Shown here in pieces: positions 2,821-5,416 of a DNA stretch of 64,000 nucleotides (positions are counted from its first letter, which is position 1; each line of letters begins with the position of its first letter). The notes beneath the pieces were generated by a model that made no database searches, was not told the origin of the DNA, and saw nothing but the letters and a program-made list of their open reading frames with translations. The DNA comes from Bradyrhizobium sp. CCGUVB1N3. Lineage in GTDB: Bacteria > Pseudomonadota > Alphaproteobacteria > Rhizobiales > Xanthobacteraceae. The DNA lies in contig NZ_JANADR010000001.1 in NCBI RefSeq assembly GCF_024199925.1, positions 6,513,501-6,577,500 of the forward strand, read 5' to 3'. The position numbers and the translations under genes are program-made.

Positions 2821-3195
2821 CTATTCAGCGGCTTCCTTTGCCACCTTCTCCTTCTTCGGACGCGGCCCCTTGGTGGGCTTGGCGTTGCCGGTCAGGATCT
2901 CGGTGACGCGGAGCACGGTGATCTCGTCGCGATAGCCGCGCTTGCGGCGCGAATTCTTGCGGCGGCGCTTCTTGAACGCGATGACCTTCGGCCCGCGCTT
3001 GTGCTGGAGCACCTCGGCTGCCACGGACGCGCCCGCAACCGTCGGGGCACCCAGGACCGGCGTGTCACCGCCGACCAGCAAAACTTCACTCAGCTGCACG
3101 ATCGTGCCGACTTCGCCGGCGATCTTGCCAATTTCCAGGACATCATCCGCAACGACCCGGTACTGCCGGCCGCCGGTTTTGATGACTGCGAACAT
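2821..3195 (-). CDS. rplU: 50S ribosomal protein L21
   Basis: This 124-aa protein starts [20 protein letters not shown] and contains [15 protein letters not shown] and [25 protein letters not shown], the conserved L21 core and basic RNA-binding loop. L21 binds 23S rRNA in the large subunit. The C-terminus carries an extra tail ([23 protein letters not shown]), as in other alphaproteobacterial L21 proteins. It is the first gene of the rplU-rpmA operon; its leader (3196-3360) contains small hairpins. Confidence 0.97.
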
Positions 3196-3532: not shown

Positions 3533-4678
3533 ATGGCAGACGAGCTGGTTTTGACGACGGGGATCGCGCAGCACGGCGCTTCCCGCCTGCCGTCGGTGGA
3601 CGTCGACAGTTTTAACGCCGAGCTGAAGGACGAGGACGGCTTTCTCGGCGACCGCGCCAGCAAGGGCGCGTTCCGGGCCATCCTGGACCATTGGCGCAAG
3701 CCGCTGCGCAAGACCGGCGAGGACCCCTTCGGCGACGAGCCCTCGGAGAAGATAGCCAAGAAGACGCTGGACGAGATGCTGGTCGGCGACGACACCGAGG
3801 CCTCCGCCGTGGTGCACAGCGCGATCGAGGATTTTGCCCAGGAGCTCGCTTACGTCACCCGCCGTTTCCTGAAGACGAAGGCCTGGGCGAAGACCGAACG
3901 CATCGTGGTTGGCGGCGGTTTTCGCGATTCCAGGCTCGGCGAACTGGCCATCGCGCGTGCCGACATCGTCCTGAAGGCCGAGGGTTTCAGGGGCGACATG
4001 CTGCCGATCCGCTTCCACCCGGACGAGGCGGCCCTGATCGGCGCGCTGCATCTGGCGCCGTCCTGGATTTTCGAGGCCCATGACAGCATCCTCGCGGTCG
4101 ATATCGGCGGCACCAATATCCGCTGCGGCGTGGTCGAGACCCGTTGGAAGAAAGCGAAGGACCTTTCCAAGGCCTGCGTCCGGAAGTCCGATCTGTGGCG
4201 TCACGCCGACGACGAGCCGACCCGCGAAGGCGCGGTGAAGCGGCTCACCAAGATGCTGAAGGAGCTGATCGCGGAGGCCGACACCGAGGGGTTGAGGCTC
4301 GCGCCCTTCATCGGCATCGCCTGTCCCGGCGTGATCAAGGAGGACGGCTCGATCGAGAAGGGCGCGCAAAATCTCCCCGGCAATTGGGAGAGCAGCAAGT
4401 TCAACCTGCCGGCGAGCCTCGTCGAGGGCATCCCCGCGATCGGCGAGCACGACACCGCGATCCTGATGCACAATGACGGCGTGGTGCAGGGGCTTTCCGA
4501 GGTGCCATTCATGCAGGACGTCGAGCGCTGGGGCGTCCTCACCATCGGCACCGGGCTTGGCAATGCGCGCTTCACCAACCGCCGCAAGGAGGCCAACGGC
4601 AAGGACCGTGACTCTACGGACGGGAAGAAGAAGGCCAAGGAAAGCAACAAGGAAAGCAAGCAAACCGACAAGGAGTAA
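3533..4678 (+). CDS. ROK-family sugar-kinase-like protein with permuted motif order
   Basis: This is a 381-aa protein. The ROK nucleotide-binding motif DIGGTNIRCG lies at residues 190-199, in the middle rather than at the N-terminus. After it come GIACPG (261-266), HND (313-315) and LTIGTGLG (336-343), the normal order of a ROK N-terminal half. The segment that usually forms the C-terminal half (ERIVVGGGF at 122-130, then DEAALIGALHLAP at 164-176) lies before the DIGGT motif. The usual CxCGxxGC zinc motif is absent. The C-terminus is a Lys-rich tail. ROK proteins phosphorylate sugars with ATP or act as repressors; no HTH is seen, so a kinase-like role is likelier. Start ATG 3533 is preceded by a purine-rich aaggg. 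Confidence 0.75.
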   Translation: MADELVLTTGIAQHGASRLPSVDVDSFNAELKDEDGFLGDRASKGAFRAILDHWRKPLRKTGEDPFGDEPSEKIAKKTLDEMLVGDDTEASAVVHSAIEDFAQELAYVTRRFLKTKAWAKTERIVVGGGFRDSRLGELAIARADIVLKAEGFRGDMLPIRFHPDEAALIGALHLAPSWIFEAHDSILAVDIGGTNIRCGVVETRWKKAKDLSKACVRKSDLWRHADDEPTREGAVKRLTKMLKELIAEADTEGLRLAPFIGIACPGVIKEDGSIEKGAQNLPGNWESSKFNLPASLVEGIPAIGEHDTAILMHNDGVVQGLSEVPFMQDVERWGVLTIGTGLGNARFTNRRKEANGKDRDSTDGKKKAKESNKESKQTDKE

Positions 4679-5326: not shown

Positions 5327-5416
5327 GGAGAGGTGGCAGAGTGGTTGAATGCACCGCACTCGAAATGCGGCATAGGTGCAAGCCTATCGGGGGTTCGAAT
5401 CCCTCCCTCTCCGCCA
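5327..5416 (+). tRNA. tRNA-Ser (anticodon CGA)
   Basis: This 90-nt gene includes an encoded CCA end. The acceptor arms ggagagg and cctctcc pair perfectly, with G as discriminator base. The anticodon stem ccgca/tgcgg encloses ct-CGA-aa, and the T arm contains ggttcgaatcc. A long variable arm (between the anticodon and T arms) is typical of tRNA-Ser. CGA reads UCG codons. No integrase or duplicated 3' end is seen beside it, so it is not an obvious island attachment site. Confidence 0.97.

Follow-up and report, generated by a model that had tools for sequence, protein, structure and literature searches.

The ROK sugar kinases (PF00480), of which the N-acetylmannosamine kinase domain of GNE (2yhy) is one example, are built from two RNase H-like domains, with a phosphate-1 motif at the start of the chain and a GGG motif at its end. 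A zinc-binding Cys motif is typical of this family, though not universal, and the ROK repressors have an N-terminal helix-turn-helix. Here, we describe a gene from a stretch of 64,000 nucleotides of Bradyrhizobium sp. CCGUVB1N3 (contig NZ_JANADR010000001.1, positions 6,513,501 to 6,577,500; hereafter the window), the product of which has the same two domains and shares the phosphate-1, ND, and GTG motifs with the ROK sugar kinases. However, its GGG comes first and is followed by DIGGT and then by GTG; in addition, the zinc Cys motif is missing and both termini fall within the C-terminal domain. This arrangement is almost certainly a natural circular permutation of the ROK fold, and it is quite probable that the permutant is also a kinase, an activity that is putative.

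Evidence for a Circular Permutation

The sole Pfam match in the protein is ROK (26.7 bits vs. a gathering threshold of 22.9), and it is limited to residues 187-349, which align with profile positions 2-141 of 294; standard annotation thus covers about half of the protein. Three further PF00480 matches were found in the same genome, all at other loci. Translation of the gene (Table 1) placed each motif where the first-pass annotation of this DNA had put it, including DIGGTNIRCG at residues 190-199 and GIACPG at 261-266. That annotation had read the order of these motifs as the one expected of a circular permutation, an interpretation that is supported by profile comparison and by the predicted structure, both of which match the two halves of the protein to ROK in swapped order. 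Neither of the two findings that the annotation had named as counter-evidence appeared in the model or in the aligned homologs.

For the profile comparison, 63 ordinary ROK open reading frames, a few of them identical, provided the ordinary-ROK profile, and the permuted family was represented by an alignment (A1) of 35 rows with 47-86% identity to the query. A1 consists of the query (P0001) and 34 of 40 usable loci, with six near-copies omitted (L008-L012, L019). Four of the 44 loci L006-L049, for which start codons were set by rule, had been dropped: L041 (its rule-made protein stops before the GTG motif, at a short contig end), L042 (where the rule gave just a 63-aa frame), L048 (an ordinary ROK), and L049 (a fragment). 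In hhalign, with a NagK/Mak-like master row, residues 1-181 matched the ROK C-terminal half (score 52.8, E = 2.9e-8) and gave no match to the N-terminal half (14.1). Residues 182-355 showed the reverse pattern, with a score of 85.6 (E = 3.7e-14) against the N-terminal half vs. 15.8 against the C-terminal half. When compared with the whole ROK profile, the N-part was placed on positions 197-300 with a score of 51.5 (E = 3.3e-7). A chance motif match is ruled out by 200 column shuffles (mean 14.5, standard deviation 2.7, maximum 29.5) and by the reversed profile (14.8). With a PPGK-like master row the match of the N-part was weaker (37.9, E = 3.6e-5, residues 110-176). On two copies of the ROK profile joined head to tail, the protein aligned in a single continuous run, from 66-349 to 197-446 of 604, and again in a single run with the PPGK-like master (110-349 to 172-380 of 488). 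Residues 1-66 gave no match when compared alone, so that for the region closest to the new N-terminus the evidence comes from the structure model.

In the full-length monomer model (predicted local distance difference test, pLDDT, 89.4; predicted template modelling score, pTM, 0.85), the ROK C-terminal domain is completed by the N-part, and the join between the two parts is short and well ordered. When each half was matched separately, the same solved structures (2yhy, 6q26, 1z05, 7p7w, and 2hoe) took both, in swapped order, and ROK proteins also headed the list for the N-part alone. In the C-terminal RNase H-like domain, the break falls between strands 2 and 3, and both chain ends therefore build that domain. 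Strand 22-27 was formed in the full-length model and absent from a model of the N-part alone, as expected if this strand needs strands 332-349. A Foldseek search with the full model returned partial matches only (template modelling score to the query 0.35 at best among the 50 matches listed), which is what a sequential aligner is expected to give for a permuted chain.

Strand 3 of the C-terminal RNase H-like domain would thus come first, and the remainder of that domain (about residues 20-176) would be followed by the whole N-terminal domain (182-321) and then by C-terminal strands 1 and 2 (332-349), such that the two chain ends close one domain. Such a protein may have originated from a ROK gene that was duplicated and then trimmed.

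Table 1. Coordinates in the window of the permuted ROK gene and of the segments and motifs of its product.
Feature	Position	Strand	Residues	Remarks
Gene of the permuted ROK protein	3533..4678	+		381 aa; ATG start, stop 4676-4678
Equivalent of the ROK C-terminal half (strand 3, helices, GGG strand, last helix)	3590..4060	+	20-176	
GGG, end of C-lobe strand	3911..3919	+	127-129	395/395 rows
DEAALIGALHLAP, last helix of the ROK C-lobe	4022..4060	+	164-176	Alignment A1; model helix 163-174
Join of old C-terminus and old N-terminus	4061..4087	+	177-185	Single run on doubled ROK template; pLDDT >90
Equivalent of the ROK N-terminal half and first two C-lobe strands	4076..4582	+	182-350	
DIGGT, phosphate-1 motif	4100..4114	+	190-194	D190, G192, G193 in 395/395 rows
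HND	4469..4477	+	313-315	D315 at the place of the ROK catalytic base; 394/395 rows
TIGTGLG, phosphate-2 motif	4541..4561	+	337-343	G339, T340, G341, G343 in 395/395 rows
Lys-rich tail, variable	4592..4675	+	354-381	Low pLDDT; most A1 rows without tail

Active Site and Rival Explanations

Conservation was followed in 395 aligned sequences (361 proteins and 34 A1 rows, the query and near-copies included); most of the 361 proteins are the best 120 of thousands of matches for each of three permuted queries. Besides the positions in Table 1, residues G39, D40, G170, R197, P265, G266, N280, W285, and H313 were invariant; N314 and D315 were each found in all but one row, and residue 194 was T in 333 rows, S in 60, and K in two. 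We take D315 to occupy the position of the catalytic base in ROK kinases, and the GGG of residues 127-129 to correspond to the one that lies near the adenosine in these enzymes. The absence of the zinc Cys motif, already pointed out in the first-pass annotation, was borne out by residues 1-181, which contain no Cys; in the reordered profile alignment, GFxGDRAS (36-43) falls at the place of the classic motif, in a weakly matched region. Given the permutation, an active sugar kinase is highly probable from these sequences, and the protein is predicted to be a working kinase, probably without structural zinc. In such an enzyme, D315 would act as the base in hexose phosphorylation, and the DIGGT and GTG loops would bind the phosphates.

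The same annotation had also described an added Lys-rich tail. The tail is present in the Bradyrhizobium protein; as for its place in the rearrangement, it is a variable extension, separate from the permutation. From GTGL to the C-terminal end, sequences span 12 to 70 residues (median 18), and beyond residue 350 the 10-residue blocks of the model have pLDDT values of 42-53. A role of the tail as a functional addition is unsupported, considering this low confidence and its absence from most of the 34 other A1 rows.

That the N-part could be a foreign domain, fused to the N-half of a ROK protein and resembling ROK through chance motifs (GGG, DEAALIGA), might be suggested by the lack of any Pfam family in this part and by its zero matches at E <= 0.001 when searched alone in Foldseek. 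However, its profile score far exceeds that of any column shuffle and ROK proteins lead its structural matches, so this fusion is strongly disfavoured and indeed scarcely credible. A different possibility accepts the homology of the N-part and places it in a swapped dimer, where it would complete the C-terminal domain of the partner subunit and the active site would be shared between chains. The chain ends would meet at a strand edge, a usual place for swapping, and the structure model covers a monomer only; nevertheless, a single chain was modeled with confidence and its join is short and ordered, which makes swapping decidedly unlikely.

The remaining rival concerns function: the protein may be a regulator or pseudoenzyme that has kept the fold and its sugar and nucleotide pockets and, like some ROK proteins, senses sugar but does not phosphorylate it. 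Such a role would fit the loss of the zinc motif and the occurrence of ROK repressors (5f7r, 5f7q, 1z05, and 3bp8) among the structural matches. On the other hand, Pfam found no DNA-binding domain, and almost no variation is seen in the presumed catalytic Asp or in either phosphate loop, so that a sensor is unlikely.

Distribution and Evolution

The alignment of homologs agrees with the order seen in the Bradyrhizobium protein: all 395 sequences, chosen by similarity to permuted queries, are permuted. A strict motif-order regular expression was passed by 377, and the other 18 are letter variants with the same order by alignment columns. A normal-order sister group may nonetheless exist elsewhere, being compatible with a sample picked by similarity. 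Recurrence of the permuted order in many genomes rules out a sequencing or assembly artefact.

Matches occurred in 40 of 297 genomes sampled from the order, in 17 of 385 from the class, and in 25 of 398 from the phylum; the samples overlap, and the genome of the window is among those counted, two genomes (G230, G227) hold only pieces, and four (G582, G695, G798, G886) match via the shared ROK part only. The permuted gene is found in Hyphomicrobiales, other Alphaproteobacteria, and Xanthomonadaceae, with named matches in Bradyrhizobium, Phreatobacter, Labrys, Pseudoxanthomonas, Luteimonas, Lysobacter, Stenotrophomonas, and Vulcaniibacterium. In addition, 207 of 72,556 plasmid records match, 204 of these over at least 80% of the query, from Rhizobium, Sinorhizobium, Shinella, Bradyrhizobium, Phyllobacterium, Methylobacterium, Roseateles, Ensifer, and Bosea. 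A gene with 81% identity is also present in a record titled Frankia sp. RB7 (L096), which may be a mislabelled or contaminated assembly.

A quick tree built from the shared N-lobe placed 20 permuted rows in one group (Shimodaira-Hasegawa-like approximate likelihood ratio test 99), apart from 58 ordinary rows; the other five of the 63 were dropped for want of a DxGG match. Next to the permuted group, as a tentative sister group, were three PPGK-like rows, with a support of 78 and long branches flagged. Ratios of nonsynonymous to synonymous substitution rates in 12 pairs, formed with 12 of 80 loci, were 0.10-0.29 for the N half and 0.05-0.18 for the C half, which shows purifying selection on both.

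Two genomes of the window's genus have two long copies of the gene: G194, with one copy by rplU and the other not (L225 and L226), and G171, with a short extra piece as well. Gene pieces, perhaps decayed or cut, were seen in L228 (1866-2201; G574, which also has a full copy), in L229 (7367-7720; G227), and in L230 (G230).

Gene Neighborhoods and a Proposed Trehalose Link

In the Bradyrhizobium window the gene stands alone between rplU (2821-3195, minus strand) and a tRNA-Ser (cga) gene (5327-5416, plus strand), with a GNAT gene and an EamA transporter on the side of rplU and a luciferase-like gene on that of the tRNA. No operon was seen around it, and no sigma-70-like promoter was found between 3180 and 5400. 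The permuted gene also adjoins rplU in L226 and L231, and lies about 4 kb from it in L224.

A recurrent neighbor of the permuted gene is otsB. A cluster that contains it was seen in five of 38 fetched regions (L196, L197, L205, L208, L229), and otsB was found in 46 of 49 non-Bradyrhizobium genomes with the permuted gene, at 0.75 kb or less between match ends in 11 of the 49; this set also omits G230, G582, G695, G798, and G886, which have only pieces or ordinary ROK matches. The two genes are divergent in G019, G065, G101, G132, G227 (a gene fragment), G246, G263, and G281, and on the same strand in G090 (with an opposite-strand gene between them), G124, and G152. The 11 genomes, which are non-independent, fall in three of 20 families, and under random placement the chance of at least three families is about 6e-7, a rough, after-the-fact estimate. 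On plasmids, otsB lies 123 bases away and divergent in Rhizobium leguminosarum WSM1689 and beside the permuted gene in Shinella sumterensis.

In four of the five otsB regions, otsA and a GH15 gene are alongside, and in two a PfkB kinase; Pfam, run on one example each, identified GT20 in L196 and GH15 with a trehalase-like N-domain in L197. In the cluster of G152 (L208, 7980-13259), the permuted ROK shares one strand with otsA, otsB, a PfkB kinase, and a PPGK-like ROK of normal order. Other neighborhoods differ. The gene of G099 (L207) is preceded by a sugar-binding protein, an ABC ATPase, and a permease, and followed by a haloacid dehalogenase (HAD) phosphatase; a similar phosphatase comes after it in G087 (L203), and in R. 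leguminosarum CB782 the neighbor is annotated haloacid dehalogenase. In Sinorhizobium meliloti and S. medicae the neighbor is not otsB but a gene whose name refers to the NAGGN osmoprotectant system, and in Phyllobacterium it is an aldolase. The common theme is, loosely, sugars and osmoprotection.

Considering the linkage to otsB, and in some regions to otsA and a GH15 gene, a sugar-kinase role tied to trehalose is our best guess: the enzyme would serve trehalose turnover, most simply via phosphorylation of glucose. A trehalose-linked glucose kinase is a tentative proposal, with slightly less than even chances. In the boldest reading, which is very improbable, a zinc-free permuted ROK kinase would phosphorylate trehalose or a related disaccharide, opposite a sugar-phosphate phosphatase that would be OtsB in several lineages and a HAD-IIB phosphatase in two others, and so switch the level of trehalose-6-phosphate, perhaps under osmotic stress.

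Significance

Trehalose matters for osmotic stress and symbiosis in rhizobia, and the linkage to otsB in some lineages offers a testable metabolic role in these bacteria. More generally, the permuted form is widespread and seems to be a genuine, natural rearrangement of an enzyme fold that is common, and its many sequences offer a way to study how a cut and a re-join are accommodated by the two-lobed actin fold and its nucleotide site. At present, this large group is named "ROK family protein" or "glucokinase" on about half of its sequence.

In the open-access literature, we found no report of a ROK kinase with a natural circular permutation and no account that joins trehalose, the ROK family, and otsB. 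As far as their retrieved excerpts go, permutation figures in PMC1079889 only as a fold-group rule, PMC2213659 concerns other kinases, PMC12696579 does not contain "permut," PMC6200981 uses the words in a different sense, and PMC1976428 is unrelated.

Comparison with Known Systems

Among the ROK sugar kinases, 2yhy is 26% identical to the N-terminal half over 147 aligned residues. The best NCBIfam and PDB sequence match is polyphosphate/ATP glucomannokinase and polyphosphate glucokinase (1woq, NF045942), although the score of 24.9 bits falls well short of the equivalog cut-off of 250 and the ROK order is permuted. Polyphosphate glucokinase and beta-glucoside kinase are the best NCBIfam matches, both far below their cut-offs. 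By reading of the sequences, the GTGxGxA after the phosphate-2 loop is like that of glucomannokinase and polyphosphate glucokinase, whereas NagK-type kinases have GTGxGGG. The normal-order ROK beside otsA in G152 (L208, 10950-11732), in the same cluster as a permuted copy, is likewise PPGK-like (107 bits vs. the cut-off of 250), with 260 aa and the ordinary motif order.

Tandem hexokinases I and II illustrate the kind of arrangement that, if cut, could give a permutant. Sequential aligners span two of their units (model 33-335 to 2nzt 288-675; about 400 columns of 5hfu), an alignment that reads as the C-lobe of the first unit and then the N-lobe of the second; the root-mean-square deviation is about 29-34, because the two lobes come from different units. 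These hexokinases are, however, eukaryotic duplications with normal-order units, an illustration and not a relative. In the permuted ROK protein, both segments are homologous to a single parent, stand in swapped order, and align in one run on the doubled parent, as in a circular permutant.
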